DNA of 64,000 nt from Corynespora cassiicola (taxonomy: Eukaryota; Ascomycota; Dothideomycetes; Pleosporales; Corynesporascaceae): NCBI GenBank assembly GCA_022059125.1, contig JAEUWY010000002.1, positions 4,712,001 through 4,776,000 of the forward strand, in the 5' to 3' direction. The notes under the pieces were generated by a model that was not told the DNA's origin, did not search any database, and saw only the letters and a program-made list of their open reading frames with translations. Position 1 is the first letter of the stretch. Every line of letters starts with the position of its first letter. This document shows, in pieces, positions 28,237-59,105 of the stretch. The position numbers were made by a program, and so were the translations under genes.

Positions 28237-28280
28237 CAAGGTCATGGCAGGAGCGGGTCGGCCATCCTTCCCGCAGCTAG
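28237..28280 (+). repeat. Junction motif copy A
   Basis: The sequence contains the core GGCAGGAGCGGGTCGGCC followed by ATCCTTCCCGCAGCTAG. It is the left end of the inverted-repeat arm: homology between the two TPR-gene arms stops exactly at its first bases (CAAGGTC). It lies 125 bp past the stop of the left TPR gene. The tail present in copies C-G is absent here. Confidence 0.85.
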
Positions 28281-28404
28281 TGGCAATATCGCTTTTTAAA
28301 CTATTCTTGACTGTTCTATATCGCTTACAAGCATGCTGACTAGCTTTCGCCACAGTCAACATGCACAAGCACCGTATTTTATATACTAAAGCAGCACCGA
28401 TAAT

Positions 28405-31400
28405 CTATTCATTACTATCTGCCTCCCACTTATGCAAGCTGCTCAACGAAGATGTGGTGTAAGGATGCAGAGGGCCGAGCTTCAATTCCCGCAACCTATA
28501 GCATGTCTGCATTAAGGATAGCGCGTCCTGATTACGACCTTGAGATTTGAAAGTGTATGCGAGGTTGTTCATGCTTGTTAAGGTCTCGGGGTGCTCCGCT
28601 CCAAGCACCTTCTCATACCCTGTCAGAGCTCGCCGGTGCATCGCTTCCGCCTCTTCGTACTTTCCCTGCCTCTCCAACACCGACCCAAGGTTGCTGACGC
28701 TGGTGAGCGTGTCTGGATGCTCCGCTCCAAGCACCTTCTCTCTCCCTGTCAGAGCTCGCCGGTGCATCGCTTCCGCCTCTTCGTACTTTCCCTGCCTCGA
28801 CAACACCGACCCAAGGTTGCTGACGCTGGTGAGCGTGTCTGGATGCTCCGCTCCAAGCACCTTCTCATACCCTGTCAGAGCTCGCCGGTGCATCGCTTCC
28901 GCCTCTTCGTACTTTCCCTGCCTCTCCAACACCGACCCAAGGTTGCTGACGCTGGTGAGCGTGTCTGGATGCTCCGCTCCAAGCACCTTCTCATACCCTG
29001 TCAGAGCTCGCCGGTGCATCGCTTCCGCCTCTTCGTACTTTCCCTGGCTCTCCAACACCGACCCAAGGTTGCTGACGCTGGTGAGCGTGTCTGGATGCTC
29101 CGCTCCAAGCACCTTCTCTCTCCCTGTCAGAGCTCGCCGGTGCATCGATTCCGCCTCTTCGTACTTTCCCTGCCTCGACAACACCGACCCAAGCTGGCTG
29201 ACGCTGGTGAGCGTGTCTGGATGCTCCGCTCCAAGCACCTTCTCTCTCCCTGTCAGAGCTCGCAGGTGCATCGATTCCGCCTCTTCGTACTTTCCCTGCC
29301 TCGACAACACCGACCCAAGCTGGCTGACGCTGGTGAGCGTGTGTGGATGCTCCGCTCCAAGCACCTTCTCTCTCCCTGTCAGAGCTCGCAGGTGCATCGA
29401 TTCCGCCTCTTCGTACTTTCCCTGCCTCGACAACACCGACCCAAGCTGGCTGACGCTGGTGAGCGTGTCTGGATGCTCCGCTCCAAGCACCTTCTCGCTT
29501 CCTGCCAGATCTCGCCGGTGCATCGCTTCCGCCTCTTCGTACTTTCCCTGCCTCTCCAACACCGACCCAAGCTGGCTGACGCTGGTGAGCGTGTCTGGAT
29601 GCTCCGCTCCAAGCACCTTCTCATACCCTGTCAGAGCTCGCCGGTGCATCGCTTCCGCCTCTTCGTACTTTCCCTGGCTCTCCAACACCGACCCAAGCTG
29701 GCTGACGCTGGTGAGCGTGTCTGGATGCTCCGCTCCAAGCACCTTCTCGCTCCCTGTCAGAGCTCGCAGGTGCATCGCTTCCGCCTCTTCGTACTTTCCC
29801 TGCCTCGACAACACCGACCCAAGCTGGCTGACGCTGGTGAGCGTGTCTGGATGCTCCGCTCCAAGCACCTTCTCATACCCTGTCAGAGCTCGCCGGTGCA
29901 TCGCTTCCGCCTCTTCGTACTTTCCCTGGCTCTCCAACACCGACCCAAGCTGGCTGACGCTGGTGAGCGTGTGTGGATGTTCCGCTCCAAGTAACCTATC
30001 CCTTGCCGTCACCGCGTCTTGAATGAATTCAGCCGCTGCCGTGTACTCTCCCATGTGGAGTAGATACCACCCTGTATTGCCCGCAATCTTCGCTCCATCT
30101 AGTGCCGCCGCCCTTTCCCTTCGAGGATAACAGAGCACCTTCTGCGAGTGTGGAAGAAGCGCCCGACAAGTCGTCCACGTCTCGTGCCGCCCGCTCGGGA
30201 AGGCCGCGCCCATGATCCGCAGCGACGCCATCTGCCATCTGCTCACTTGCCCCTGCACCTCCAGCCACTTCCTCATCGCCAGCTGCACCAGCCCGTGCAT
30301 CTCGAACAGACCCTCCCCGGTCTGCCGCTCTGGCTGCCCCCTGCTCTGCGATCGGATCAGAGAAAAGCTCGTCAGCGGCGCTACCGCATCCTCGAACTGC
30401 AGCCTGCTCCGGCCGTCATACACTATCCGCTCTGGGATCCCCTGCCTGTCGAACATGGCCATCAGCGACAGCAGCTCCGCTGCCTCGGGCTTGGTCGCCT
30501 GGATCTGATCGAATGACACCTGCCAAGTCGTGATGACGGCATCCGACACGCTATCGTCCCGCCGTAAGTCTCGCCCCTCTTCGCTGTTGAGGAGAGATGC
30601 CCGGTTCTCCTCGCTCTCGCGGAACAGCCCGAGGTAGACCGAGATGGTGATCCGCTCTCTGACGGCCATGTACGCCCCTGCGTGCGTAACCGCGAGAGGG
30701 ATGCACTCCAGCGTCTGCACCAGCAGCCTTGCCTCCGCTTCCAAGCTCTCACCCACGGACACCCTCGTCTTCAGCAGCACCAGCGCATCGCCCTCTTCCA
30801 TCGGCGTCACCTGAGCCACACTCGCCCTCTTGCCGACGAGGTTTATCGCTGCGACCAGGTCCCGCGACGTGACCAGTATCCATCCGTTCTGGCACTGCGG
30901 CAGGAAGGCCGCCAGTGCCCTCACGTCGCCCTGCTCAATCGCTTGCCCGCCGCTCTTTGAGCCAGCGCCAGGAGAGAAGACCCGGTCGTCGTCGGCGTTG
31001 TCGACTATCATGAGCCATCGCCCATTCCTCTCGTCAGATAGCCAGTTGGACACCAGCCGGAGGATGTCCGTCTTCGGATCGTCTAGGCCCGGAAGCTCGA
31101 CCTTGGCGGCGATGTCCCTGTAGGCCTGCTCGAATCGGGCGGCGTTGCTCGCGTGCACCCAGAATACCCAGGTGTCCGGCGCAAACTCCCTCAGCCTGTA
31201 TGCATATTCGATGGCGATCTGGGATTTGCTACAGACAGGTGAGTGAGGTATCGCATTTGCGAACGCGTGGGTATGCTCACCCTACACCGCCTAGACCAAC
31301 GAGAGCCACTCGAGCATGGTCCTGCTGTGCTTCCTGTTGAAACATCCTCTTCAAGTCGGCTAGAGTATCCTCTCTGCCTACAAACATGCGATCTCTCTGG

Positions 31401-32892
31401 AAGGGGACCATCGAACATGGCTTGGGTCTGTTCTGCAGTCGTGCTGCATTCAAATGGCATCAGCTGCGAGTAGACACATAGACAGCGGGTAACACTAGGC
31501 TTTGAAATGAAACAAGGCGAAGGCTACATACAAAACCGAGCCGCGATCACGCCTGGAGCTTCCCGCTCGAACTGCGTCAGCTTGTCCCGCGCGCTGCTGT
31601 ATCCCCGGTGGTTCCTAGTGTCGAACTTGACCATCATCGAGTGGTCTGCGTCGATAGGAACTTTGTCTTCGATAGAGTCGGGCAGCTGCAGGAGAGCTGA
31701 GTCGGTATCGACAGCCGTGATGAAGTCGCCCGTCCGCTTCCAGCGTTTGCTTGCACTGTCCTGTCGTACATTGTTAGTAATGCGTCACTGCATTGTCCTC
31801 AAGCAAGTATCGTACAAACTCAAGCCGCCTGGTCTGGCCCGTCTCATAGAAGCTTACGATCTTTCGGTCGCGGATGAGGTTCTTAAAATCTGCCAACTGG
31901 AACGCGAGCAGATCCGACTTCGTTTTAATCTGTCCAAGTAGTGCGCCTCGCGGATGGTTGTTCTCGTTAGCCAGCATCTTCTCAATATCGTCGACTACGA
32001 GGCCCTTGTGCGGGATCCCGAAAAGAAGCATCCCGTACGTGGCCCTATGCAGAGATGCAATTGTGGGGTGGTCGTCCTCGCTCGTTTGAACCGCTTTTAC
32101 AAGACACTGCTAGCTTAGCTACGGACATAGCATGCTCGACCTTGTCACTTACATGAGCAAGAATGATGCCGCCAAAGCTGTGTGCGACAAAGAACAACGG
32201 TCGCTCCCGTAGCTGGCAGGGTAGAGGTATTAGCTCAGCGTGCCGCCGCTCTCTATAGATCTGCTCACCTCTTCTGTATTTCGGACCTTCTTCAGCTCCT
32301 CCATCAGCCCCCGCCCGTAGTCCATGATCGTGTCGATCCCATGGCTCGACAGCTTCGAGTTGTACCCGTAGATCATCGTGCGGCAGCATGGCAGGTCCTT
32401 GGACAGGAAGTCGCGCAACCACACCCTTCCGAGATTCCCCTTTCCCCTCCATGACCCGTAGGCGTGGCCGTCGAGGCCAGTAATGGCGATGATACTGCGC
32501 GAGCGGTCAGCCGACATGGCTTGTTAGGAGAGAGGTACGTACTCGGCATTGATCGGCGAGTCCGCCTTCGGACTGTACAGCTGCGTGAAGCCGAAGAAGT
32601 GCTGGTCGAAACTGATGTCTGTGTCGCCCATCTCCACCTGCCAGTCCCCTAGTGGGTCGTTCGTCAGTTCGGACAGGAAGGTGGGCGCCCCGCCGTGAAA
32701 CTCCACCAGTGCGACCTTCTCGTCATAGCCGTAGCAAGAGGGGACAATTGCTATGCTAGGGGTCGGCTTCGACTGCTCTTCTGCGGCCAAGTTGTCGTCG
32801 ATGGCAGCCTTCAGCAAGGCAGTCAGCTCGTCGTTCGGCTGCGAGGCTGGCAGGCCCGTGACGCGGAAAACGGGGCCCTTCGTCCGGGCCAT
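28405..32892 (-). CDS. NLR-like receptor: SesB-like lipase domain, NB-ARC, TPR (left copy)
   Basis: STAND-type receptor of about 1380 aa. Exons (mirror of the right copy) are 32892-32543, 32494-32269, 32212-32153, 32106-31816, 31760-31532, 31443-31281 and 31228-28405. Start MARTKGPVFRVTGLP is chosen over a longer frame because it follows the arm edge and resembles the opening of related proteins. Domains: alpha/beta-hydrolase of SesB type (IIAITGLDGHAYGSW; nucleophile elbow AHSFGG, about residue 204); NB-ARC with P-loop VGLGGVGKS (about 435-441), Walker B WLMIVDNADD, ILVTSR, CIPLAVTHAG and MHGLVQL in the MHD position; then 11 near-identical 42-residue TPRs and one diverged repeat. Known fungal relatives sense non-self or control cell death; that function is inferred here. 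It is transcribed away from its twin. Confidence 0.92.
28584..29994 (-). repeat. TPR-coding tandem array, 11 near-identical 126-bp units
   Basis: Each unit encodes LGAEHPDTLTSVSQLGSVL followed by QGKYEEAEAMHRRALTG-type sequence. Units differ only at a few positions: H/D after HP, Q/N before LG, S/E and R/S before QG, A/S and R/L around MH, A/D-L-T/A, and Y/S/R before EKV. A twelfth unit (HPETLTSMNNLAYTF) is diverged. Confidence 0.95.
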
Positions 32893-33206
32893 GCCGGTCC
32901 AGGCGTGCGTCCAGGCGTGCGTCGGGGTGTGCGCCGTCGAGTGCAGCGTCCGCCAGCGACTCTGGCGGGCGTGCAGGAAGTTGGTAGGTGCGAGGCCCGC
33001 TGCATCATGAGTGAGCTGAAGACAATGGGGGCTGAGCCGGTCTGCAAGGCTGAGGCCAACGTCGACATCCTCGCTTATCGAGAGAGCATCGCTGCCGGCG
33101 GGCCGCACCATTACATGTAATTGCAAAGCATGTTAGAGGACAAGGTGTGTTCTCTCTGCCTAACCTAGTACAATTTGGTTTGTGCTGTTCCCGTTCTACA
33201 CACTAT

Positions 33207-34256
33207 TTAAGCAGACTTGACTGCTGATCTTCGACGTTTTACATCTCTATCGTTCAGCCATGTCGCTAGCAAGTGATACCAAAACAAACTAAGCCATATA
33301 AAAAAAATAGCTGTGAGGCTCGCCGCCACAGCAACCAAAGATGTTACAGTAAAACCGTATGAAGTACTCTGGAACGGTTCATTGCCCTGCAGTGTTGTTG
33401 TCGCAAGCCCGACCTGCAATGCTGACAAGACAACAGAGAGGATGGCAAACACGGCTAGCATCCATTTGAAATGGCGGTCGAAGAAAGCTTGGTACCATGT
33501 CGATCGGCTTTGGTACCCTCCGATAAGATTACGAAAAGAATATGAGGGTGGAAGAATTCTGTATATAGCGTTGAGGCGGCTCAATCGTAGCTCTCCGTAT
33601 TCATAACGTCGGTTCACGCCGCTCAGTGTCTCGCAATTGATGTTCTCCAGAAAGGCATCTATGAAGTCAACCCAGCCGGACCATTTTATCTCTTTCGGCA
33701 AGAGCCCCATTTCCGTTGCGATATCAAGATCGCTTTTGTACCGGATAAGCCATGCATAGGATAATAGCAATCCGCATGCAGCTTCGTGCAACTCTTGATC
33801 CGAGGATAGCTGGCTGTTCCACGATTCCCAGTCGAGGAGGAAAGCAGGCAACGGCTTAATGAAGATTTGGTCTTCGAACCACACTAGATGCTCGTCAGGA
33901 TCCTCGGTGATGAGGATAGTGCGTCCTAGCAACTTCTGCCGGTGCAAAGGCCGTGCAGCTGCTGGGCGGCCTGCGAGCCAAAGACGATGATGGACGTCGT
34001 TGAGTCTCGGTGTTTTCAGCTCGTCAGCCAGATGAGTGAATGGCTCTTCGCTTGTTTGCGACGACTGCTTCTCTCGGAAAGCTGTCGCAACTTGTACCGC
34101 TGTAAAGCGAACTGAAGCGGGAGCAGCGGTTGTTGAAGGGTTGGTCTTCGATATTGGTGGCTGAATCTTCTCAATTCCTGTATGCCTGGAACGAACATAA
34201 GCCTAAGCTTGCTGAATTATTGAACACACTACTTGCTTCCCAGCAGGGCTGTCCAT
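33207..34256 (-). CDS. DUF6601-like membrane protein, in the loop between the inverted arms
   Basis: The main frame runs continuously from about 34180 to 33207. It begins with a serine/threonine-rich leader, then ELKTPRLNDVHHRLWLAG, then LHRQKLLGRTILITEDPDEH and LVWFEDQIFIKPLPAFLL, a pattern I associate with the fungal family DUF6601 (function unknown). Two transmembrane helices close the protein (WMLAVFAILSVVLSALQVGL and LVAVAASLTAIFFIWLSLFW). A small first exon from ATG 34256 (MDSPAGKQV) joined through an intron ending TTCCAG near 34181 fits, but the donor is uncertain, so the N-terminus is provisional. The length is about 330 aa. It is single copy and sits almost exactly in the 1.4 kb spacer, outside both arms. 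Confidence 0.7.
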
Positions 34257-34701
34257 TGAAGAGAGTCTCTAGGCAATTACAGCGCGCAACGTGTGATGGA
34301 TATTAGCGTGAAAAAAATGCCTCAGCCAAACGACGGTCAGGAATGCACTGACGTCGATCTAACTCTGTGGGTTGAATAAGAAAGGAATAACGGATGTTGG
34401 GAAAAAGGACCGATGTTTTGATATGAGGTAAAGCCTGGGTGTGTAAGATGCTGGGGTGGTGGTGGGTAATAGCGGGACACAATAGGTGCGGCCCGCCGGC
34501 AGCGATGCTCTCTCGATAAGCGAGGATGTCGACGTTGGCCTCAGCCTTGCAGACCGGCTCAGCCCCCATTGTCTTCAGCTCACTCATGATGCAGCGGGCC
34601 TCGCACCTACCAACTTCCTGCACGCCCGCCAGAGTCGCTGGCGGACGCTGCACTCGACGGCGCACACCCCGACGCACGCCTGGACGCACGCCTGGACCGG
34701 C
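34257..34701. promoter_or_regulatory. Upstream region of DUF6601-like gene and right TPR gene
   Basis: About 445 bp between the DUF6601-like start and the right TPR-gene ATG. The right arm begins at 34485, so only 217 bp of the upstream region are shared by the two TPR genes; more distal promoter sequence differs between them. Confidence 0.5.
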
Positions 34702-37700
34702 ATGGCCCGGACGAAGGGCCCCGTTTTCCGCGTCACGGGCCTGCCAGCCTCGCAGCCGAACGACGAGCTGACTGCCTTGCTGAAGGCTGCCATCGACGAC
34801 AACTTGGCCGCAGAAGAGCAGTCGAAGCCGACCCCTAGCATAGCAATTGTCCCCTCTTGCTACGGCTATGACGAGAAGGTCGCACTGGTGGAGTTTCACG
34901 GCGGGGCGCCCACCTTCCTGTCCGAACTGACGAACGACCCACTAGGGGACTGGCAGGTGGAGATGGGCGACACAGACATCAGTTTCGACCAGCACTTCTT
35001 CGGCTTCACGCAGCTGTACAGTCCGAAGGCGGACTCGCCGATCAATGCCGAGTACGTACCTCTCTCCTAACAAGCCATGTCGGCTGACCGCTCGCGCAGT
35101 ATCATCGCCATTACTGGCCTCGACGGCCACGCCTACGGGTCATGGAGGGGAAAGGGGAATCTCGGAAGGGTGTGGTTGCGCGACTTCCTGTCCAAGGACC
35201 TGCCATGCTGCCGCACGATGATCTACGGGTACAACTCGAAGCTGTCGAGCCATGGGATCGACACGATCATGGACTACGGGCGGGGGCTGATGGAGGAGCT
35301 GAAGAAGGTCCGAAATACAGAAGAGGTGAGCAGATCTATAGAGAGCGGCGGCACGCTGAGCTAATACCTCTACCCTGCCAGCTACGGGAGCGACCGTTGT
35401 TCTTTGTCGCACACAGCTTTGGCGGCATCATTCTTGCTCATGTAAGTGACAAGGTCGAGCATGCTATGTCCGTAGCTAAGCTAGCAGTGTCTTGTAAAAG
35501 CGGTTCAAACGAGCGAGGACGACCACCCCACAATTGCATCTCTGCATAGGGCCACGTACGGGATGCTTCTTTTCGGGATCCCGCACAAGGGCCTCGTAGT
35601 CGACGATATTGAGAAGATGCTGGCTAACGAGAACAACCATCCGCGAGGCGCACTACTTGGACAGATTAAAACGAAGTCGGATCTGCTCGCGTTCCAGTTG
35701 GCAGATTTTAAGAACCTCATCCGCGACCGAAAGATCGTAAGCTTCTATGAGACGGGCCAGACCAGGCGGCTTGAGTTTGTACGATACTTGCTTGAGGACA
35801 ATGCAGTGACGCATTACTAACAATGTACGACAGGACAGTGCAAGCAAACGCTGGAAGCGGACGGGCGACTTCATCACGGCTGTCGATACCGACTCAGCTC
35901 TCCTGCAGCTGCCCGACTCTATCGAAGACAAAGTTCCTATCGACGCAGACCACTCGATGATGGTCAAGTTCGACACTAGGAACCACCGGGGATACAGCAG
36001 CGCGCGGGACAAGCTGACGCAGTTCGAGCGGGAAGCTCCAGGCGTGATCGCGGCTCGGTTTTGTATGTAGCCTTCGCCTTGTTTCATTTCAAAGCCTAGT
36101 GTTACCCGCTGTCTATGTGTCTACTCGCAGCTGATGCCATTTGAATGCAGCACGACTGCAGAACAGACCCAAGCCATGTTCGATGGTCCCCTTCCAGAGA
36201 GATCGCATGTTTGTAGGCAGAGAGGATACTCTAGCCGACTTGAAGAGGATGTTTCAACAGGAAGCACAGCAGGACCATGCTCGAGTGGCTCTCGTTGGTC
36301 TAGGCGGTGTAGGGTGAGCATACCCACGCGTTCGCAAATGCGATACCTCACTCACCTGTCTGTAGCAAATCCCAGATCGCCATCGAATATGCATACAGGC
36401 TGAGGGAGTTTGCGCCGGACACCTGGGTATTCTGGGTGCACGCGAGCAACGCCGCCCGATTCGAGCAGGCCTACAGGGACATCGCCGCCAAGGTCGAGCT
36501 TCCGGGCCTAGACGATCCGAAGACGGACATCCTCCGGCTGGTGTCCAACTGGCTATCTGACGAGAGGAATGGGCGATGGCTCATGATAGTCGACAACGCC
36601 GACGACGACCGGGTCTTCTCTCCTGGCGCTGGCTCAAAGAGCGGCGGGCAAGCGATTGAGCAGGGCGACGTGAGGGCACTGGCGGCCTTCCTGCCGCAGT
36701 GCCAGAACGGATGGATACTGGTCACGTCGCGGGACCTGGTCGCAGCGATAAACCTCGTCGGCAAGAGGGCGAGTGTGGCTCAGGTGACGCCGATGGAAGA
36801 GGGCGATGCGCTGGTGCTGCTGAAGACGAGGGTGTCCGTGGGTGAGAGCTTGGAAGCGGAGGCAAGGCTGCTGGTGCAGACGCTGGAGTGCATCCCTCTC
36901 GCGGTTACGCACGCAGGGGCGTACATGGCCGTCAGAGAGCGGATCACCATCTCGGTCTACCTCGGGCTGTTCCGCGAGAGCGAGGAGAACCGGGCATCTC
37001 TCCTCAACAGCGAAGAGGGGCGAGACTTACGGCGGGACGATAGCGTGTCGGATGCCGTCATCACGACTTGGCAGGTGTCATTCGATCAGATCCAGGCGAC
37101 CAAGCCCGAGGCAGCGGAGCTGCTGTCGCTGATGGCCATGTTCGACAGGCAGGGGATCCCAGAGCGGATAGTGTATGACGGCCGGAGCAGGCTGCAGTTC
37201 GAGGATGCGGTAGCGCCGCTGACGAGCTTTTCTCTGATCCGATCGCAGAGCAGGGGGCAGCCAGAGCGGCAGACCGGGGAGGGTCTGTTCGAGATGCACG
37301 GGCTGGTGCAGCTGGCGATGAGGAAGTGGCTGGAGGTGCAGGGGCAAGTGAGCAGATGGCAGATGGCGTCGCTGCGGATCATGGGCGCGGCCTTCCCGAG
37401 CGGGCGGCACGAGACGTGGACGACTTGTCGGGCGCTTCTTCCACACTCGCAGAAGGTGCTCTGTTATCCTCGAAGGGAAAGGGCGGCGGCACTAGATGGA
37501 GCGAAGATTGCGGGCAATACAGGGTGGTATCTACTCCACATGGGAGAGTACACGGCAGCGGCTGAATTCATTCAAGACGCGGTGACGGCAAGGGATAGGT
37601 TACTTGGAGCGGAACATCCACACACGCTCACCAGCGTCAGCCAGCTTGGGTCGGTGTTGGAGAGCCAGGGAAAGTACGAAGAGGCGGAAGCGATGCACCG

Positions 37701-39819
37701 GCGAGCTCTGACAGGGTATGAGAAGGTGCTTGGAGCGGAGCATCCAGACACGCTCACCAGCGTCAGCCAGCTTGGGTCGGTGTTGTCGAGGCAGGGAAAG
37801 TACGAAGAGGCGGAAGCGATGCACCGGCGAGATCTGGCAGGAAGCGAGAAGGTGCTTGGAGCGGAGCATCCAGACACGCTCACCAGCGTCAGCAACCTTG
37901 GGTCGGTGTTGGAGAGGCAGGGAAAGTACGAAGAGGCGGAAGCGATGCACCGGCGAGCTCTGACAGGGTATGAGAAGGTGCTTGGAGCGGAGCATCCAGA
38001 CACGCTCACCAGCGTCAGCCAGCTTGGGTCGGTGTTGTCGAGGCAGGGAAAGTACGAAGAGGCGGAAGCGATGCACCTGCGAGCTCTGACAGGGAGCGAG
38101 AAGGTGCTTGGAGCGGAGCATCCAGACACGCTCACCAGCGTCAGCCAGCTTGGGTCGGTGTTGTCGAGCCAGGGAAAGTACGAAGAGGCGGAAGCGATGC
38201 ACCGGCGAGCTCTGACAGGGTATGAGAAGGTGCTTGGAGCGGAGCATCCAGACACGCTCACCAGCGTCAGCCAGCTTGGGTCGGTGTTGGAGAGGCAGGG
38301 AAAGTACGAAGAGGCGGAAGCGATGCACCGGCGAGATCTGGCAGGAAGCGAGAAGGTGCTTGGAGCGGAGCATCCAGACACGCTCACCAGCGTCAGCCAG
38401 CTTGGGTCGGTGTTGTCGAGCCAGGGAAAGTACGAAGAGGCGGAATCGATGCACCTGCGAGCTCTGACAGGGAGAGAGAAGGTGCTTGGAGCGGAGCATC
38501 CACACACGCTCACCAGCGTCAGCCAGCTTGGGTCGGTGTTGTCGAGGCAGGGAAAGTACGAAGAGGCGGAAGCGATGCACCGGCGAGATCTGGCAGGAAG
38601 CGAGAAGGTGCTTGGAGCGGAGCATCCAGACACGCTCACCAGCGTCAGCAACCTTGGGTCGGTGTTGGAGAGGCAGGGAAAGTACGAAGAGGCGGAAGCG
38701 ATGCACCGGCGAGATCTGGCAGGAAGCGAGAAGGTGCTTGGAGCGGAGCATCCAGACACGCTCACCAGCGTCAGCCAGCTTGGGTCGGTGTTGGAGAGCC
38801 AGGGAAAGTACGAAGAGGCGGAAGCGATGCACCGGCGAGCTCTGACAGGGTATGAGAAGGTGCTTGGAGCGGAGCATCCACACACGCTCACCAGCGTCAG
38901 CCAGCTTGGGTCGGTGTTGTCGAGGCAGGGAAAGTACGAAGAGGCGGAATCGATGCACCTGCGAGCTCTGACAGGGAGAGAGAAGGTGCTTGGAGCGGAG
39001 CATCCAGACACGCTCACCAGCGTCAGCCAGCTTGGGTCGGTGTTGTCGAGGCAGGGAAAGTACGAAGAGGCGGAATCGATGCACCGGCGAGCTCTGACAG
39101 GGTATGAGAAGGTGCTTGGAGCGGAGCATCCAGACACGCTCACCAGCGTCAGCAACCTTGGGTCGGTGTTGGAGAGGCAGGGAAAGTACGAAGAGGCGGA
39201 AGCGATGCACCGGCGAGCTCTGACAGGGTATGAGAAGGTGCTTGGAGCGGAGCATCCAGACACGCTCACCAGCGTCAGCAACCTTGGGTCGGTGTTGGAG
39301 AGGCAGGGAAAGTACGAAGAGGCGGAATCGATGCACCTGCGAGCTCTGACAGGGAGAGAGAAGGTGCTTGGAGCGGAGCATCCACACACGCTCACCAGCG
39401 TCAGCCAGCTTGGGTCGGTGTTGTCGAGGCAGGGAAAGTACGAAGAGGCGGAATCGATGCACCGGCGAGCTCTGACAGGGAGAGAGAAGGTGCTTGGAGC
39501 GGAGCATCCAGACACGCTCACCAGCGTCAGCAACCTTGGGTCGGTGTTGGAGAGGCAGGGAAAGTACGAAGAGGCGGAAGCGATGCACCGGCGAGCTCTG
39601 ACAGGGTATGAGAAGGTGCTTGGAGCGGAGCACCCCGAGACCTTAACAAGCATGAACAACCTCGCATACACTTTCAAATCTCAAGGTCGTAATCAGGACG
39701 CGCTATCCTTAATGCAGACATGCTATAGGTTGCGGGAATTGAAGCTCGGCCCTCTGCATCCTTACACCACATCTTCGTTGAGCAGCTTGCATAAGTGGGA
39801 GGCAGATAGTAATGAATAG
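34702..39819 (+). CDS. NLR-like receptor: SesB-like lipase domain, NB-ARC, TPR (right copy)
   Basis: Exons 34702-35051, 35100-35325, 35382-35441, 35488-35778, 35834-36062, 36151-36313 and 36366-39819 join in frame to about 1590 aa. The intron at 35779-35833 has a perfect TACTAAC branch site; the others are 46-88 nt GT/AG. The P-loop lysine codon begins right after the last intron (GG|C AAA TCC). Domains are as in the left copy: N-terminal segment of unknown function (residues 1-117), alpha/beta-hydrolase (about 118-330, AHSFGG), NB-ARC (about 415-800) and TPRs (about 851-1523, 16 near-identical units plus a diverged one). The duplication must be recent, since only the TPR array differs. In this family the repeats are expected to bind the ligand and the N-terminal hydrolase to be the effector; this is family knowledge, not shown here. 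Confidence 0.93.
37600..39640 (+). repeat. TPR-coding tandem array, 16 near-identical 126-bp units
   Basis: Same unit as in the left copy, but with 16 units in a different order of variants. For example the AMHRRDLAGSEKV variant occurs four times here and once on the left. The order cannot be derived from the left array by one simple block deletion that I can see. Confidence 0.95.
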
Positions 39820-39943
39820 ATTATCGGTGCTGCTTTAGTATATAAAATACGGTGCTTGTGCATGTTGACTGTGGCGAAAGCTAGTCAGCATGCTTGTAAG
39901 CGATATAGAACAGTCAAGAATAGTTTAAAAAGCGATATTGCCA

Positions 39944-39989
39944 CTAGCTGCGGGAAGGATGGCCGACCCGCTCCTGCCATGACCTTGTG
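39944..39989 (-). repeat. Junction motif copy B
   Basis: Reverse orientation of copy A. It lies 125 bp after the right TPR gene stop and 255 bp before the first nuclease-like gene start. Its head (CACAAGGTC on the minus strand) faces the nuclease-like gene. Confidence 0.85.
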
Positions 39990-40243
39990 TTGAGGTTTCT
40001 TTTCTGCAAGTGTGGAACAGAGATAGCAGTGAGGATGAATGACTATGATTGGTGTTAGGACCATTTTCTCTACTGTGGCGTTGTGGCGGTGCACCATATC
40101 GGAAGCTGGGTCATAACGTGCTGTTGCTTGGGAAACAGCGCGCGAAGCTCAGGCCATATCCAGCAAGCTGCTCCGCGCCGGAACTTTGGGCGTGACAAAA
40201 GCCTTCCTCTTGCTCTGCACTCTGGTACTAACACGTCATCGGA

Positions 40244-42480: not shown

Positions 42481-42547
42481 CACAAGATCAGGGCAGGAGC
42501 GGGTCGGCCAGATTCCCTGCTAGCGTAAGCGAGTCGTTCATGCGCAC
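42481..42547 (+). repeat. Junction motif copy C
   Basis: Full version: CACAAGATCAGGGCAGGAGC, then GGGTCGGCC, then CCCTGCTAGCG and the tail GAGTCGTTCATGCGCAC. It lies between the 3' ends of nuclease-like gene 1 and the NACHT-ankyrin gene. Confidence 0.9.
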
Positions 42548-42799
42548 TTTTAGCTTCCGAAGGTGGCAAACTTGATAGCTCAGCCCTAATTGCGCAATAC
42601 AGTGATGGTATTTAATTTCCCTGTCCTATTTGACTTCCTAATCGGATATATACTGTATGAAGTTGTAGGGACAGAGTTATACATAAAAGGATTGGTCGAT
42701 TGCACTTATCACACTATTGGATCGATCTTGATAGTTCACTGCAGTGGAGCAAAATCCGCCTCGAGGTAGAAAAAAAAACCTTCAATGGAAATCAATTCC

Positions 42800-48667: not shown

Positions 48668-49021
48668 TGCTGTCGATAGCTCGCTATGTGCCCTGCTGTT
48701 ATCAGTCGAACCCTCTAAAAGAACACCGGAAGGTATAGGCTAACATGACTTATGTGTACTTCCTTATAGCTTGAATCAGACAGTGTATCTTATGTTGCTG
48801 GATAGAGTGTGTCGTTTCCGTGAGCGGGGTGGATTCAGGGCCGACTGATTGCTAGGCTGAAAGGCTGAAGAGCTGAAGAGCGTAGTTGCCAAGCTAATGC
48901 GTCTCGTTACACGAATACGAAAATACGCGCGCCATTAGATTGCCATTAATCACAGTCAAATAAGAGAGCTTATCATTGGTCTTCCGGAAGCTATCCTTGG
49001 GGGCAAAAACAAAAGGATATT
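48668..49021. promoter_or_regulatory. Upstream region of the NACHT-ankyrin gene
   Basis: About 350 bp between the NLR N-terminus and motif D. It should hold the promoter and possibly a short first exon. A possible ATG lies near 48747, but the splice needed to reach the main frame would give an intron of only about 34 nt, so I do not annotate it. Confidence 0.35.
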
Positions 49022-49086
49022 GCGCGTGAACACCTGGAGCACGCTAGTAGGGACGCTGGCCGACCCGTTCCTGCCCTGATCTTGTG
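49022..49086 (-). repeat. Junction motif copy D
   Basis: Reverse orientation. It contains GGCCGACCCGTTCCTGCCC with the head GATCTTGTG facing nuclease-like gene 2, and the tail toward the NACHT-ankyrin gene. It lies 245 bp before the nuclease-like start, nearly the same spacing as copy B to gene 1. Confidence 0.9.
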
Positions 49087-49330
49087 ATAACCTTTTTCGT
49101 GGTGGTGAAATAGATAGAGCAGTCAGGATGCATGCCTATAATTAGTGTAATAGAGATAACTTTCTCGGTTACGGCAATGTGGCGTCGGGTCGGTGCTATC
49201 ATCTCCGCTCTCCTATCACGTGCTGTTGCTTCGGAAACAAAGCGCAAAGCTCGGACCATATCCAATATGCTGCTTGGCCTCATTCAAAACCTGACATCAT
49301 ATCAACCACCATACGCCAACAGCCTCTATT

Positions 49331-50836
49331 ATGTGCGCGCGCGAGCGAGAAACTTCAATTTTGAAGTGGCTTGAAGATTTCCCTTGCGACCGTCAGAATC
49401 CTTCATTGACATCCGCAGAACCACTTACACCATTGTCATTGCGTTCGGGTCCGTCGACCCCCACTTTGTCAGGCAAACGGAAACGGGGGAGAAGCATGCC
49501 TGAACCCCGATCACACAGCCCTCAAAAGCGCCAACGGAGACTACCCGATGATGATGACATATTTCCTGATCAGAGTGCTTCAGACATAGGGGTGACAGAA
49601 CTGTCGGAGAGGACTAAACTGTCGCGTCCATCGCAATCTGCCGGATCGAGTCCGAAGCGAGCAACGAGTCCCGTGCGAGACCTTTTGAATGATTTACGCG
49701 TGTCGAAACCCTCTGTACTCTGTGAAATTCCGTCCTCGGTGACGCTTCCTGAGCGTGCTGCGGCCCTGCAGCGACGTCTGATGGACGAGCTTGAAGAGCG
49801 GCTTATTCCGGCAAGCTTAAAGGTAATGGGACCAGTCAGCTTAAGGACTTATTCCATGACATCTGACAAACAATACTCTGCAGCCTCGAATACTTGCGAC
49901 ATATCCTTCTGTAGCGGCGACCATTCCAACCTCAGCGTACGACGTCTCAGATACGCGATCAGCAGATGAACTCAACATATTATGGGATTGCGTGGAGGAG
50001 ATTTTAAGCGAGAGCAGGGACTGTGGGAGATACCAACAAGATGAGAATGCTTGGTGTATGAAGGTGGTCCATCCAACCTTGCGCCTAGCACTGAAGGGGA
50101 GCTCTATGCTGAAAGTCGAAAGCGTGTATGTCTTAACCTGAGCAACGCTCTCCACCGGTACTCAGTATGACTGAATATTGCCTTTGCAGACAAACCCAAG
50201 CGGTCAATCCCGATATGCTGCCAATCACGCCAAAGAATTATCGTGTTCAAAGAAAAGCGGACTATACATTCGCTTTTCATCGGAACAATGAGCAGGTGTC
50301 GGAGCTCTACAACAAACTCCATCTAGTTGGCCTGGGTGACATGATCAGTCAGACAATACCAAGCGACTAGCTCTATTCTCTGGGATTGAGGTGAAACAAG
50401 AGAATGGAGGCAAGGACGAAGCGCTTGCCCAATTAGCAATTTGGCTGGCTGCAGGGCTAGAGAATGTTAGGAGATTGGCCGAAATAGGGCAAAAGCGACA
50501 ATTTTCCGTTGAGGAACTCCGCCCCACGGTCGGATGGACGATCATCGGGCATGACTGGCATACATATATTGCTCACAGGGTTCATCAGGATGGCCGAGAT
50601 ACGTTTGTAAGCATATCTGCACAAGCGGTCGCACATTGCCTAGCTAACCGAGCTGCGGACAGAACGTTGTGGGACCATGGAGACCTGCTACCGCGGACAC
50701 GAGGGATGTGTATGGAATCTTCAAGCTATTGCGATTGGTGAGAAGAGCAGCCGAATTTGCCTCGGATGAGTATTGGCCGTGGCTGAAAGACGAAGTATTG
50801 ATACCTTGCGTTAGCCATAATGGCCAAGGCCTGTAA
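49331..50836 (+). pseudogene. PD-(D/E)XK nuclease-like protein 2, one frameshift
   Basis: Exons 49331-49822, 49884-50125, 50190-50606 and 50663-50836 cover a full family member of about 441 codons. The Ser/Pro/Arg-rich leader (KRKRGRSMPEPRSHSPQKRQ) is followed by LEERLIPASLK, DENAWCMKVVHPTLRLAL, VQTQAVNPDMLP, RKADYTFAF (Asp), FSGIEVKQENGG (E-x-K), AQLAIWLAAGLENV and VVGPWRPATADTRDVYGIF. The summed exon length is one base short of a multiple of three; the break lies near 50357 (between DMISQT and TKRLALFSG), where a single lost base would explain it. Upstream sequence from motif D to the start resembles that of gene 1. It is either decayed or affected by a sequencing error. Confidence 0.78.
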
Positions 50837-51924: not shown

Positions 51925-52245
51925 AGAGGTGTTTGCAACTAAGTATCACACAGATCATTGAAGGTAAATCAGATTCTACCTGTAGAGCTGATTAAGAATG
52001 AAGTAAACCATACTATTTCAATCCAGACGAGTATTGTGCCTAGGGCAATCAAGGAGAGTATTTTTACGGAGTGGAGCGGTACATGTTCCGTGGATAATGT
52101 GGGATGAGACAGCCAAAACAGCCTCGTTACCTTCAGAATATTGTAGCAGAGCTAATCTAAAGATCTGTCCCCACGCAGCAATACACCGCCTCATAAAAGC
52201 TTGCCCTTAATCCCAATCCTATCTACTGTTCAAATTCAAAAGCGG
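51925..52245. other. Intergenic region, nothing recognised
   Basis: About 320 bp between the small Cys-rich gene and motif E. It may hold the last exon of that gene; nothing firm is seen. Confidence 0.3.
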
Positions 52246-52310
52246 ACAAGGTCAGGGCAGGAGCGGGTCGGCCATCGTCCCGCCAGCACGATTGAGCCGT
52301 TCATGCACGT
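52246..52310 (+). repeat. Junction motif copy E
   Basis: ACAAGGTCAGGGCAGGAGCG, then GGTCGGCCATCGTCCCGCC and the tail GAGCCGTTCATGCACGTC. It lies 392 bp before the first HET-NACHT-WD40 gene start. Confidence 0.9.
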
Positions 52311-52637
52311 CGTTCTTGCCCCTCCGCCACCACCACGAACGACTTATGCTGCGCCACACTCTGGGCTGTGCGAGCACTCGACCTCCAGCTACGACCTCAG
52401 CCTGATGCAGCTTTGTCTCGCGAAATGGAGCACACAATAGCTGGTTGCATCATCGCGCTCTCTAATACTGGAATCAGGTGCTACCGATCCTCCTAACAAC
52501 TCGACGCATTTACTAAGCTAGTAGCTAGGTCGTACGCGAAATAGACGACCGAGCTTGCTGTGCTCGCCTTGCTGGCTAGGCCGCCGCGATCAAGGAACTG
52601 TTCCTCCTGCATCTTTCTACCATCTCGATGCGACACC

Positions 52638-55600
52638 ATGCGCCTTCTACAGCACAGCGGTACTGACGCATACCAATTTACGAAGCTTTTCACCAACGAT
52701 AGGGCGATTCCTCCCTACGCGATCCTCTCACATACATGGGGAGCGGACGGCGATGAGGTCACATATGATGACTTAATAACGGACAATGGTACGCATAAGC
52801 CTGGGCATGAAAAGATTCGGTTCTGCGCAGAGCAAGCCAGGCAAGATGGCTTAAAGCACTTCTGGATTGACAGTTGCTGTATCAATCAAAAAGATAAGGC
52901 CGAGCTGTCGAAAGCCATCAACTCTATGTTTACCTGGTATCGTAGAGCAGAGCGGTGCTATGTCTATCTGTCAGATGTTTCGACAGCTAAGCGGAAGTTA
53001 GATGGCGACACCTGCGAGTGGGAAGCTGCCTTTCGGAGGAGCAAATGGTTCACTCGAGGCTGGACGCTCCAAGAGCTGATTGCACCTCGTATAGTCGAGT
53101 TCTTCTCTCGGCAATGCAAGTGCCTCGGCAACAAGGACTTACTGAGGCAACAGATCCATGAGATCACCAATATCCCAGTGGCTGCGCTTCAGGGAGAGCT
53201 GCTCTCGCAATTCAGCGTTAACGACCGCTTATCATGGGTCCAGCACCGCGAAACAAAGCGTGAGGAAGATAAGGCATACTCATTAGTGGGTATTTTTGGT
53301 GTTTATATGTCCCCCATCTACGGCGAAGGGATAGGTAGAGCTTATGGCCGACTCCAAGACGAGATTAAGAAGCTGGAGGAGTGTATGAGAGACCTACACG
53401 TCACCGATCCGCGGCGCGACAAAGCGCGTATTGAAGAGACCAAAGGCGGACTATTAGAGGAGTCGTACCACTGGATCTTCCAAAACCTAGACTTTATCCG
53501 CTGGCGTAAAGAAACGCAAAGCCGGCTGCTGTGGATTAAAGGCGATCCTGGCAAAGGCAAGACTATGCTGCTTTGCGGCATCATCGACGACCTGTACAGG
53601 TCCACGGCCAAGACGACTCTTCTCTCATACTTCTTCTGCCAGGCCACTGACTCACGTATTAACAATGCAACGGCTGTGCTAAGGGGTCTCCTATTCATGC
53701 TTGTCGACCAGCAGCCAGCGCTCATCTCGCATCTGCGGAAGGAATACGACCAGATAGGCAAAGCGCTCTTCGAAGATTCTAATGCCTGGGTTATTTTACG
53801 TGAGATCTTTTTAGACATTCTACAGGACTCGATCTTGGACAGCATGTACTTTTTCGTCGATGCGCTCGACGAATGTATAACGGATCTTGACAAGTTGCTG
53901 GTCTTCATTGTGCAGAGTTCGTCTCTGTCACCTCGTGCCAAGTGGATACTGACGAGTCGCAACTATGTCAACATCGAGCAGCGACTACAGCTCGACGATT
54001 CTGGAGCGAGGCTCAGTCTTGAGTTGAAGGAAAACGCTGAGCAAGTCTCCCGTGCCGTTGGCGCTTACATCAAATATCGCGTTGGAGAACTGGAACAAAT
54101 CCGGCATAACCAGCTACTCCAATCATCAGTTCGAGAGAAGATGCAACAGAAGGCGAACGGCACTTTTCTTTGGGTGGCTCTAGTCATGAAAGAGCTTAAA
54201 GAGGCACAGTCCTGGGAGGTATTGCAGGTCCTCAACGAAGTCCCGTCGGAGCTAATAGACGTGTACCGGCGGATGATGGAGCATATTAAGCAGTTAAGGC
54301 GCCGTAATCCAGAACTGTGCCGTCAAATTCTCTCTACTGTCATCGCTACGCAACGTCCGCTACATCTACAAGAGCTTTACGTTCTAGCGGACTTGCCTAA
54401 CCAGGACCCTAATATAGAAGAAACGACCGCGACGATGGTAAAAATGTGCGGTTCATTCCTCACATTACGAGAAAATCATATATATGTTGTTCATCAGTCA
54501 GCTAAGGATTTCTTATTAGACGAAACGACCCTCAGCAAGTTTCCGTCCGAAGCTGGAAAGATTCACCAAAACATCTTTTCCAGATCTATACAGGTCATGT
54601 CTAATAGTCTCCAGCGAGATATGTATCAGCTGCATGCGCTAGGATACCCTATCGAGCAGGTACAACAACGCAAGCCTGATCCACTAGCGGCACTACGGTA
54701 CTCGTGTATCTATTGGATCGATCACCTCTGCGAATGGATTTCTAAGTCATCAACGTGCGATGGGAGCATTCTCAAGAGTGGTGGGGTGGTAGACGGATTC
54801 ATAAGAGAGAAGTATCTCTACTGGCTCGAGGCTATTAGCCTTTGCACAAGCATGTCGAAGGGTGTAATGTCAATGGCTAAACTAGAGGCCTTAATCGATG
54901 TAATCTCCTACCAGCTCATTCTGTATAATAAGCATTTACTAACTAGACCAGAAGCAAGAAGCTACATCTTCGATAATGGAAGTAGTTCGAGATGCACGGC
55001 GATTCATTATGTACCACAAATCGGCTATTGAGAGTAGTCCGCTTCAGGCATATGGCGCGCTTCTATTTAGTCCAACTCGTAGTATTATACGAGTGCTATT
55101 CAAAGATGAAGAGCCAAAGGGGATAGTAATTAAGCCAGGAATACAGGAACGATGGAGTAACTGCCTCTTAACACTCGAGGGCCACAGCTCCGCCGTCAGC
55201 TCGGTGGCCTTTTCTCACGACTCGACCTTGATGGCGTCCGCGTCCGACGACCGCACGGTGAGGGTGTGGAAGCCAGGCAGCGGCGAGTGCATGTCGACGC
55301 TCAAGGGCCACAGATCCTGGGTCAGGTCGGTGGCCTTCTCCCACGACTCGACCCTGCTGGCGTCCGGGTCCGGCGACTGCACAGTGAGGGTGTGGAAGCC
55401 AGGCAGCGGCGAGTGCGTATCGACGCTTGAGGGCCACAGCGCCGCCGTCAGGTCGGTGGCCTTCTCCCACGACTCGACCCTGCTGGCGTCCGGGTCCGGC
55501 GACTGCACAGTGAGGGTGTGGAAGCCAGGCAGCGGCGAGTGCGTATCGACGCTTGAGGGCCACAGCGCCGCCGTCAGGTCGGTGGCCTTCTCCCACGACT

Positions 55601-56364
55601 CGACCCTGCTGGCGTCCGGGTCCGGCGACTGCACAGTGAGGGTGTGGAAGCCAGGCAGCGGCGAGTGCGTATCGACGCTTGAGGGCCACAGCGCCGCCGT
55701 CAGCTCGGTGGCCTTTTCTCACGACTCGACCTCGATGGCGTCCGCGTCCGACGACCGCACGGTGAGGGTGTGGAAGCTAGGTAGTGGCGAGTATATGTCG
55801 ACGCTCGAGGGCCACAGCGCCGCCGTCAGCTCGGTAGCCTTTTCTCACGACTCGACCTTGATGGCGTCCGCGTCCGACGACCGCACAGTGAGGGTGTGGA
55901 AGCCAGGCAGCGGCGAGTGTATGTCGACGCTCGAGGGCCACAGCTCCTACATCAACTCAGTGGCCTTCTCTAACGACTCGACCCTACTAGCGTCCGCATC
56001 AGATGACCGCACGGTGAGGTTGTGGAAGCCGAGCAGCGGCGAGTGCCTTCTTATAGTCGACACTGGGAAGGTACTCTTTTACATTGCATTCGAATCCAGT
56101 GGTAACTACCTACACACTGACAACGGTATTATTAATGTCAGTGCTCAAACGACTACAACTCCAGCGCAAACCAGTGTAGAAACTCAGACCGCTCGGTATC
56201 AGGGCGTGGCTTTAGATGCAGCTGGTACATGGATAACACATAACTCGCAGAATATAATATGGGTGCCTTTAGAGTACCGATCATCTTGTCAAGCAGTGTT
56301 AGGAAATGTTATTGCTGTCGGAGTTGGGAATGGAAGGGTATGGATGTGCGAAATTCGAGAGTAG
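52638..56364 (+). CDS. HET-NACHT-WD40 receptor 1 (HNWD/HET-E-like)
   Basis: Exons 52638-54899 and 54952-56364 give about 1224 aa. This is the domain plan of the Podospora het-e/het-d/het-r incompatibility proteins. HET domain, residues about 1-170: MRLLQHSGTDAYQFTKLF, PPYAILSHTWGADGDEVTY, HFWIDSCCIN and FTRGWTLQELIAP. NACHT: P-loop LLWIKGDPGKGKTMLL near residue 302, Walker B YFFVDALDECI. The segment IYVVHQSAKDFLL is the winged-helix-like part. From about residue 827 come seven WD40 repeats, then a diverged C-terminal blade-like region. The start at 52638 is chosen because MRLL is the conserved N-terminus. The intron (54900-54951) uses GTAATC and an ACTAACT branch. Such proteins trigger cell death when the WD40 domain recognises a partner variant; that is family knowledge. 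Confidence 0.94.
55170..56065 (+). repeat. WD40-coding tandem array, seven 126-bp units
   Basis: Units encode STLEGHSAAVSSVAFSHDS followed by ASASDDRTVRVWKPGSGEC-type sequence. Units 3 and 4 are almost identical at DNA level; the last (HSSYINSVAFSNDS) is the most diverged. Variable residues cluster around GHSxxVxS and ASxSxDxT, the positions reported to be polymorphic and under selection in HNWD proteins. Confidence 0.93.
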
Positions 56365-56547: not shown

Positions 56548-56610
56548 GTGCATGAACGACTCGATTGCGCTAGCGGGAGGATGGCCGAACCGCTCTTGCC
56601 AGGAGCTTGC
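56548..56610 (-). repeat. Junction motif copy F
   Basis: Reverse orientation: the tail GTGCATGAACGACTCGATTG faces the HET gene, then CGCTAGCGGGAGGATGGCC and a diverged head (GAACCGCTCTTGCCAGGAGC) toward nuclease-like gene 3. It lies between the 3' ends of the two genes. Confidence 0.85.
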
Positions 56611-56977
56611 GCCGGAGGCGTTGAATTTTCAGGTACATGTCAGAAGAGCAAGAAGGTATGCAGGGTTGCTGTCACAAGGATCTATTGAGCTAGTTACGGT
56701 CAAGATGTATTCCACAGGGTACCAGGCTCAGGATCAGCCGAAGCATAGAACTAAAGTCAACTAGCGTCAGAGCACGATCCACTGCGGGAACTACAAGCGG
56801 GACCTAAATTAGCCAGGCACGACCGTGGCACGAGCTATAGATACGTCGTCGGTCTTCAGTTTTGTATCGGAGAGTAAACCAAAGCCGCCCAGCGTGCGCT
56901 GATTGGACGTGAGAATGTCTACACATGGCGAAGATTGATGCAATCCACTTCGTTGTTGTGGAACAGGTTATTTCGCA

Positions 56978-58558
56978 TCAGGAGAGCCCAAGAGTGAAGG
57001 TCAAATTATGTTCTGTGAAGCCTGAGTGCATCTTGTGGGATGAAGGTTGCGTTGTAGAATCGAGAGTAGCACCATGTCCCTCGTCAACGTCTCCGGCGAG
57101 CCTTTGCAACACTACCTCCATGAAGCTGCCCCAGAACCCACCATTTCCTCCATCCCTCCCGTACTTAATCACGTTTTGCCAAAGTCTTAGCGTCCGAAAG
57201 ATACCACTCACACTCCTCGTCTCGCAGAGACCTAAGGAACCAACCTCTGGTCCCAGAATATGCACAGCATCCCGCTCCTCCGATTCCATGTACGCAAAAT
57301 AAACGTGCGTCTCATGCCCTATGATAGCGAAGCAGGGTTCCACTAGGTTGCTCTTGTCCACTAGTCCTACCCGTCGCGCAAGCTGCATCTTCTTCCGTAA
57401 GCTAGCTGCCATCCATATGCTGAGTTGGTATTCGGCTTCCGTGTGATCGCCGCTGGCGGGCTTGACCTCAACGCAAGAGAAGAGGGCCGTTGTTTTTGTA
57501 AAAGCGTCTGCCATGTGGCTTATGACGGGATTGCCTACATTTCTTAAACGGCTATACAGATCTTCGAAGCCCGGCGATTTTAGATGGGAGAAGGAGAGGG
57601 TAAAGTCGGCTTTGCGATCGAGTAGGCGAGGTTTGCCAGAAGCATCGGTGGTGGAGGATAGAAATTCACTAGCGATAGCCTGCGACTGTCTATTGAGGTG
57701 TCAGTGCTTACATCCTAAACAGAAGCAAAAGAAGTCTTACACGCTCTGGAGCCAGAACTTCTCCTCCCCTTCCAGCCTCATCGCGAGCTTCATCAATGGC
57801 TGAATCACGTCCATACACCACGCATTCTCATCGCGGCCTTTTGCCTGACACATACGTGCGTTAATCCAAATCTTCTTCACCTTTCGCAGCAGATACGCCA
57901 GTGCTTCACGCTCTTCACTGTCAACAGCTGGGTCCGCGAGGCGCCGCGCCGCGGCATTACTCCAAGCATGAGACTCAATCCTTTGGTATCCAAAATCTTC
58001 GTCTTCTTCTATCAGCTCCAGTAGCTGTCCTGGTATCCAGCCTCTGTCCAAGCCATCTTCTAGCCGCTCAATGACATCCCTTACCCTCCGTGGTGGCGGT
58101 GTTTTGAGCCCTGAGCTCGGTTCTGTTATCGTCGGAGGAGATGCGGAGGCTAGTATAGCGATGTTATCGCGCGACGGACTATTTGCTCGACGAGGGCTTC
58201 TGTTGCTAGCTTGGCTGCTTGGTGGACTGAAGGTATTCCTTTCATTGAGCGTCAGCGCGCCCGCACTCGAAGCCGCTCCAGCTGCTGATGCGCTATGAGT
58301 AGGCAGGATTTCGGCATCGATATCGGTATCGCGTCTGGGTCGCTTAGGACTGGGATTGCGCGTCGACATTGTATGGGCACAGCACGCGGAGCAGGTCGCA
58401 CGCTTCCGCTTCAGCGATGGGGCGTTCTCAGGCGTTGAGGGTGGGGAGATAGCGTCTGCCTGGCCTGGGACCGGTTCAGAGAGCTGCTGAACCCAGCCTT
58501 CCACGCGCAAAGTCTTCGCAGCGGCGATAGAGGGCGACAATGGCGGCGTTGTGGCCAT
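56978..58558 (-). CDS. PD-(D/E)XK nuclease-like protein 3, intact
   Basis: Exons 58558-57741 and 57689-56978 give about 509 aa, with a clean GTAAGA/ATAG intron of 51 nt. MATTPPLSPSIAAAK is taken as the start, although the frame stays open further upstream. The leader is Ser/Pro/Arg-rich (STRNPSPKRPRRDTD, ASNRSPRRANSPSRD). The core has RGWIPGQLLELI, RDENAWCMDVIQPLMKLAM, then LLDRKADFTLSF (Asp), LFSCVEVKPASGD (E-x-K), AEYQLSIWMAASL, FAIIGHETHVYFAYM and SVSGIFRTLRLW. All catalytic-type positions are present, making this the best-preserved of the three. Unlike the other two it is on the minus strand, yet it is still enclosed by inverted junction motifs. A Gly-rich C-terminal extension follows (GRDGGNGGFWGSF). 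Confidence 0.9.
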
Positions 58559-58997
58559 GGTGGTTGGGTGCTTTGGTGGTTGCCTACCTTCTAGGTCCGA
58601 CGCAGGGCACTCAAACGCGGCTAGAGCACGCTTAGTCGCGTCACCCAGGAAACAGTGCATAGGTTGGTACAAGAGATACTTTCACCACCACGGCAGCGCG
58701 ACAACCACACAATACGCACAGAGTTGCGTGACAGATTTCGAAGCCCATCTCGTTAACTTTAAAGCTGAAGGCGAGTGAGCTTGCATTCAATGTAAGCATT
58801 GGGAGTGAAGATTTGATGTTCTCATCTGCGCTGGAGCTTACCAAGAAAGGGTTAGTACATCTGCAGCGACTCGGCAAGAAGATTCACCTACCGCCCCAGC
58901 ATCAGAACGGCTTGGCTCCCCATGAGTTACATCTGATCTCCATCAAAGGATGGTTCATCAACAACTCTCGCTAACATTTACGGCAGTAGCAAGCTAT
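58559..58997. promoter_or_regulatory. Upstream region of nuclease-like gene 3
   Basis: About 440 bp between the gene start and motif G. No other gene is supported. Confidence 0.35.
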
Positions 58998-59062
58998 CAC
59001 AAGGTCCGGGCAGGACTGTGTCGGCCGTCATCCCTGCTAGCGCAGTCGAGGTGTTCATGCGC
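58998..59062 (+). repeat. Junction motif copy G
   Basis: CACAAGGTCCGGGCAGGACT, then GTGTCGGCCGTCATCCCTGC and the tail GAGGTGTTCATGCGCGTC. It lies 382 bp before the start of the second HET-NACHT-WD40 gene, close to the 392 bp seen for copy E. Confidence 0.85.
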
Positions 59063-59105
59063 GTCTCCCATGTCCGCTTTCTGTGACCGCTGCGCGCCAG
59101 CCTTG

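Follow-up and report, generated by a model that had tools for sequence, protein, structure and literature searches.

A polar motif between NLR-type and nuclease-type genes of Corynespora cassiicola is a candidate breakage-and-joining site of exchangeable cassettes

INTRODUCTION

What sets one short sequence at border after border between two classes of genes? The question is raised by a 64,000-nucleotide stretch of the Corynespora cassiicola genome (assembly GCA_022059125.1, contig JAEUWY010000002.1, positions 4,712,001 to 4,776,000; hereafter, the window), in which seven copies of a motif lie between genes of NLR type and genes of nuclease type. A first, sequence-only reading had proposed either the terminal inverted repeat of a nuclease-carrying cassette or a recombination or boundary site used to assemble an NLR island. 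We followed the motif through the whole assembly (44.35 Mb in 23 contigs, designated C1, C2, and so on; the window is C2:4712001-4776000); all results come from this one genome, and the counts rest on pattern searches. The explanation that we favor, with modest confidence, is that the motif is a polar breakage-and-joining site at the edges of exchangeable NLR-type and nuclease-type cassettes.

RESULTS

The motif and its distribution

The 18-base core of the motif occurs seven times in the window with 0 to 3 mismatches, in the order + - + - + - + that the sequence-only reading had reported, against a mean of 0.03 in shuffled sequence. Searched with up to 2 mismatches, the core had 40 places in the genome, compared with 10 when reversed as a control; a 26-place pattern allowing up to 3 mismatches had 115, compared with 6. 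The conserved stretch, earlier put at 45 to 67 bp, measures about 50 to 58 bp; it begins at its head with CRCAAGGTCAGGGCAGGA, the hexamer CRCAAG coming first, and has a mean column identity of 70% over 37 aligned copies. Several unrelated gene families share this head-side hexamer, and an extension resembling AACGCCTCCA lies directly outside it in 8 of 43 heads, spanning different head-side families (0.3 expected by shuffling). An RNA element is ruled out by the lack of predicted pairs in the 37 motif copies, of any tRNA, and, at window positions 28000 to 64000, of any Rfam match.

To 100 of the 115 pattern matches, five places from a separate search were added, and of these 105, 14 on likely duplicate contigs (C3, five; C13, five; C22, three; C17, one) were left out, giving 91 motif places. 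The duplicate status of C3 was judged by sequence (98.8% and 100%), that of C13 and C22 by mirrored coordinates, and that of C17 by one shared motif variant. C3, C13, and C22, as contig ends or small contigs, are near-duplicates of array stretches of C2 and C6 and are likely assembly duplicates. Of the 91 places, 80 fall into five clusters, on C1, C2, C6, C8, and C9; five of the 11 outside them have 3 mismatches and may be due to chance.

Motif polarity and gene class

Neighboring motifs no more than 15 kb apart have opposite orientations in 53 of 61 cases (binomial P = 3e-9), and the intervals between them are partitioned by content. Tail-to-tail intervals (n = 29) hold an NPHP3_N NLR in 21 cases and a nuclease-type gene in none, and head-to-head intervals (n = 24) hold a nuclease-type gene in 18 cases and an NLR in none (Fisher tests, 2e-9 and 1e-8), which is not the genome-wide scatter without link to these genes that would have spoken against the sequence-only reading. 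Four of the eight tail-to-tail intervals without an NPHP3_N match were read; tail-side unit 1 of the window and two loci of a unit X are of TPR type, and that at C6:2824774 has ankyrin repeats. No NLR domain was found in the scanned portion of the tail-side unit starting at C1:177586.

The gene places compared comprised 101 of 123 NLR rows (second pieces and weak rows were dropped), 19 of 28 PDDEXK_12 rows, all six DUF7924 rows, 15 FunK1 places from 22 rows, and six DUF3435 places from 11 rows, which are all the PF11917 matches of the genome. Among the motifs adjacent to a gene (up to 12 kb away), 24 of 25 at PDDEXK_12 (PF20516), 13 of 15 at FunK1, 8 of 10 at DUF7924, and 3 of 4 at DUF3435 have the head toward the gene, and 62 of 66 at NLRs have the tail toward it. 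The claim that heads face nucleases and tails face NLRs is thus borne out by the genome-wide intervals, and other PF20516 genes share the motif; in the window itself, however, what lies on the head side of copy A is a DUF3435 gene, an arrangement found in three places. The head-side families are accordingly PDDEXK_12, FunK1, DUF7924, an unnamed PD..E family, or the DUF3435 recombinase. The motif is not a general NLR feature, since 57 of 93 NLR places lack one up to 12 kb away.

Gene orientation is mixed, with nine plus and six minus in single-NLR units and nine of each in head-to-head units, and the motif stands at the 5' ends of some genes and the 3' ends of others. A promoter or terminator alone is excluded by these observations, as the first reading had argued.

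All 28 PF20516 matches in the genome exceed the curated cutoff (best E value, 1.1e-55). An intact PDDEXK_12 protein has its closest relatives in Lindgomyces (82% identity), Byssothecium, and Amniculicola, three genera of Pleosporales; the predicted PDDEXK_12 model was not used (predicted local distance difference test score, 39). FunK1 is a kinase with an N-terminal D..ELK signature, which suggests a PD-(D/E)XK-like N terminus and hence nuclease plus kinase in one protein. Foldseek gave no match to the FunK1 model at E values up to 0.001; in VIA-align, the sole restriction endonuclease among the matches listed was BpuSI, a result that says nothing against the PD-(D/E)XK fold. Two head-to-head intervals without a Pfam nuclease (C1:95322-97082 and C1:144959-146950) encode an "EPD..IIEV" protein, which, like DUF7924, appears by eye to be of PD-(D/E)XK type. 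In two head-side stretches (loci L036:73-1275 and L015:1920-2966), a gene for a C2H2 zinc-finger protein lies near DUF7924.

Homology ends at the motif

Of the 45 matches with a length of 400 bp or more and an identity of 80% or more, none runs past a motif for more than 60 bp, against a mean of 8.1 and a minimum of 1 in 2,000 random placements; this null covers parts of two arrays, and some of the 45 matches are truncated where the retrieved sequence ends or are internal repeats. In 903 pairs of 43 motif copies, the head flank is common to 32 and the tail flank to 27, and no pair shares both. Unrelated units align in the motif alone and not in their flanks, so that residual paralogy of one untranslated region does not account for it. 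Two units of the window illustrate the pattern: positions 56607 to 58896 match C1:169070-171360 (97.2%) from within the head of motif F, the C1 copy being without the motif, and positions 58999 to 63240 match C1:97084-101307 (88.6%) from the head of motif G. Support for the recombination-site reading comes from the fact that homologous units do not extend past the motif and that their neighbors differ from place to place.

Breakpoints and joins at base level

Where two head-side units are 96 to 100% alike in the 400 bp ahead of the motif, the first difference between them falls at motif base 7 for FunK1 left, base 8 for FunK1 right, base 7 for NUC-B right, and base 15 for NUC-A right. The DUF3435 head-side unit of the window has a 97 to 99% copy at C1:492301-495760 that parts from it at base 6; this pair is 97.4% alike over 898 bp, the last 40 bp being identical. 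In all five recent-copy pairs, then, the first difference lies in or just after CRCAAG, and three joins without a motif part after base 5 (NUC-A left), base 5 (nuclease unit 3 left), and base 2 (NUC-A right). In general, then, the head-side unit takes the hexamer along and the tail-side unit the motif body, and these bases (6, 7, 7, 8, and 15) point, by comparison of sequences, to a shared site at which the position of exchange is fixed.

Recurring cassettes and palindromic units

NUC-A spans C1:372713-374994 from motif head to motif head; its copy at C1:166786-169069 (98.4%) has no motifs, and its right end is joined straight to the copy of nuclease unit 3 of the window. A FunK1 unit is present at C1:341269-344382 and C6:2747956-2751070, where the ends, the parts compared, are 97.9% (585 bp) and 95.0% (621 bp) alike and different tail-side units adjoin the same end. 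Unit X, with TPR repeats, occurs at C1:328598-341269 and C6:2751070-2760937; the two ends at one locus are 100% alike (572 and 530 bp for the two loci), those of different loci are 97.3 to 97.6% alike, and the neighbor sets differ. NLR matches of equal score and opposite orientation on C1, C6, C8, and C9 suggest further palindromic NLR units. A perfect 3.5-kb inverted repeat (C1:224800-228296 and C1:230379-233875) lies inside the C1 island.

Organization of the window

The features of the window are listed in Table 1. Pfam matches agree with the sequence-only reading in the PDDEXK_12 genes of the three nuclease units, the NACHT-type ankyrin gene, and the two HET-NACHT genes; of the WD40 repeats ascribed to the latter, those of the first were found by Pfam, and the second has a related array. 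The supposed pair of TPR-NLR genes in tail-side unit 1 proved to be two copies of a single TPR gene, which form an inverted repeat with 98% identical arms around a 1.4-kb center with a DUF6601 gene. Pfam gave TPRs and a weak DUF7779 match for this unit, with neither NACHT nor NB-ARC, which makes its NLR label less certain. In nuclease unit 2, four stops lie within the profile match, and the gene is either broken or has introns that account for them. Unit 4 is closed by a minus-strand motif at C2:4776390-4776415, beyond the window.

TPR-, ankyrin-, and WD40-type repeats are highly similar to one another within genes (up to at least 90%) at window positions 37468 to 39783, 42796 to 45567, 55162 to 56091, and 61787 to 63907. 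Adjoining the DUF3435 gene, positions 12001 to 24000 form a 12-kb stretch of 23 to 25% G+C within a region of 48 to 60%, resembling repeats mutated by repeat-induced point mutation.

Table 1. Motif copies, units, and genes in the window (window coordinates)
Feature	Position	Strand	Basis
Head-side unit with DUF3435 (Starship-captain-type) gene	25286-28234	+	PF11917, matches 25393-27333
Motif A	28235-28292	+	Core search, alignment
Tail-side unit 1, palindromic TPR-gene pair	28237-39987		TPR genes 28408-31281 (-), 36313-39816 (+)
DUF6601 gene between arms of tail-side unit 1	33210-34202	-	Pfam
Motif B	39932-39989	-	Core search, alignment
Nuclease unit 1, PDDEXK_12 gene in two overlapping frames	40232-41913	+	PF20516, E values 1.1e-11 and 2e-42
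Motif C	42481-42538	+	Core search, alignment
Tail-side unit 2, NPHP3_N/ankyrin NLR-type gene, several frames, limits approximate	42803-48739	-	Pfam
Motif D	49029-49086	-	Core search, alignment
Nuclease unit 2, PDDEXK_12 (Pfam match 50340-50738)	49295-50738	+	PF20516
Motif E	52245-52302	+	Core search, alignment
Tail-side unit 3, HET-NACHT-WD40 gene (WD40 by Pfam)	52545-56361	+	Pfam
Motif F	56554-56611	-	Core search, alignment
Nuclease unit 3, PDDEXK_12 at 56981-58681	56607-58896	-	PF20516
Motif G	58998-59055	+	Core search, alignment
Tail-side unit 4, HET-NACHT gene with 126-bp repeat array related to WD40	59317-64000	+	Pfam, repeat comparison

DISCUSSION

Under the explanation that we favor, the tail-side cassettes would carry NLR-type genes, single or as palindromic pairs, and the head-side cassettes PD-(D/E)XK-type genes (PDDEXK_12, FunK1, DUF7924, and one unnamed family) or the DUF3435 recombinase. 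DNA would be broken at a fixed place just inside the motif head, at about 5'-CRCAA/G/GTC-3', the hexamer being kept by the head-side cassette and the motif body by the tail-side cassette, and the ends would be rejoined to those of other cassettes, mostly precisely and sometimes with a loss of bases. Because all sites share one polarity, such an exchange would retain the nuclease at the head and the NLR at the tail while the neighbors, and probably gene orientation, change. A polar break at a fixed place, followed by rejoining, would thus explain the kept polarity, the changed neighbors, the mixed orientation, and the motif-less and ragged joins.

Several observations weigh against it. Eight of the 61 neighboring motifs are in the same orientation; the head faces an NLR at 4 of the 66 NLR-adjacent motifs, and the tail is turned toward a PDDEXK_12 fragment on C8 and toward the gene at two FunK1 and two DUF7924 places. 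In a looser count of flanks (37 copies, 666 pairs), 36 pairs share the head side, 22 share the tail side, and one shares both. One of the five exchanges fits a break anywhere up to base 14. Ragged joins were seen twice: C1:117439 lacks the hexamer and about 10 bp of the head-side unit, and about 70 and 32 bp are lost at C1:151499. No enzyme is tied to the site, and the case comes from a single genome.

The motif might instead be a selected cis element, such as an insulator or a chromatin or transcription boundary, with neighbors changed by ordinary ectopic recombination through shared homology. A fixed polarity could be a property of a boundary element, the flanks of unrelated units lack the conservation that the motif shows, and shared homology would likewise place breaks at the motif. 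The breaks, however, sit at one end of the motif rather than being spread across it, which makes recombination by mere shared homology less likely; the three motif-less joins part at the same bases, and most NLR places have no motif nearby, so we regard this explanation as rather unlikely. We consider it improbable that a cut-and-paste transposon family, with the motif as its terminal inverted repeat, carries the tail-side units as cargo. Inverted motifs do stand at both ends of the 13 tail-side units with both ends read, similarity between ends runs well past the motif in some (C1:126298/131774 and C1:137299/144958), and a join without a unit exists at C1:169070. Yet at each of nine offsets, no more than one of the 13 units is flanked by direct repeats of at least 3 bp, where re-pairing gave a mean of up to 0.45, and it is this lack of an excess of target-site duplications, a check that the sequence-only reading had suggested, that makes a classical transposon less likely; most copies, moreover, lie in a few arrays beside nuclease-type genes, and Pfam found no transposase among the open reading frames scanned, which covered part of the frames and units. 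A terminal inverted repeat of the nuclease cassette, as first proposed, fits less well too, since only about the first six bases follow the nuclease side and nuclease units cut at the same spot also occur without the motif. That an ancestral nuclease-NLR block was simply duplicated, in tandem and inverted, leaving the motif as residual similarity, is disfavored and seems very improbable: recent duplication is plentiful, some units are palindromic, and the AACGCCTCCA extension looks older, but none of the 45 copies runs through the motif, the hexamer is common to unrelated families, and a multi-unit block match, on C3, is taken as an assembly duplicate.

Returning to the breakage-and-joining site, a dedicated enzyme would be at work, for which position alone makes the DUF3435 recombinase or the arrays' own nucleases candidates, and the gene types suggest that selection may act on the pairing of a sensor with a killing enzyme. 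A bolder and more tentative form of this explanation, which we consider less likely than not, is an immune-gene shuffling system, in which a dedicated recombinase or nuclease would cut at CRCAAG/G, bring cassettes of NLR-type sensors into new combinations with killing cassettes of the PD-(D/E)XK nuclease or nuclease-kinase kind, flip the cassettes, and yield palindromic sensor pairs.

In integron cassette arrays and in V(D)J recombination, polar sites bound genes or segments that are joined at a fixed position. The sites described here are alike in polarity and fixed joining position, but their orientation alternates, and what they set apart is whole genes of two classes. Bacterial Avs STAND proteins combine an NLR-type sensor with a PD-(D/E)XK effector; here sensor and nuclease are separate neighboring genes, and their partnership is suggested by the gene types.

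Titles and opening lines of abstracts in the open-licence literature (preprints being outside that scope) gave no description of such a layout. In the portions available to us, a survey of Sordariales describes NLR genes clustered along the chromosome, with up to five per cluster, an arrangement thought to aid diversification (PMC12258605); the grouping is as here, whereas those portions mention no motif, nuclease partners, or fixed break. Starships are elements with a DUF3435 captain and can carry NLR cargo (PMC12134995); a DUF3435 gene likewise stands beside the present array, which differs in having a site at each gene border, and no ends of a larger element were seen outside the arrays, where no search for them was made. 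The SPOK spore killers join a PD-(D/E)XK nuclease and a kinase in one protein (PMC6660238), a layout like that suggested for FunK1 when domain layout alone is compared, and the sections seen describe no NLR array, unlike the arrays here.

If real, the shuffling system would be the eukaryotic parallel to integron arrays, continually making new sensor-killer neighbors. The systematic link between NLR-type and nuclease-type genes suggests sensor-effector partnerships. A polar site with a fixed break would offer a concrete mechanism by which large, fast-changing fungal NLR repertoires could be built up.

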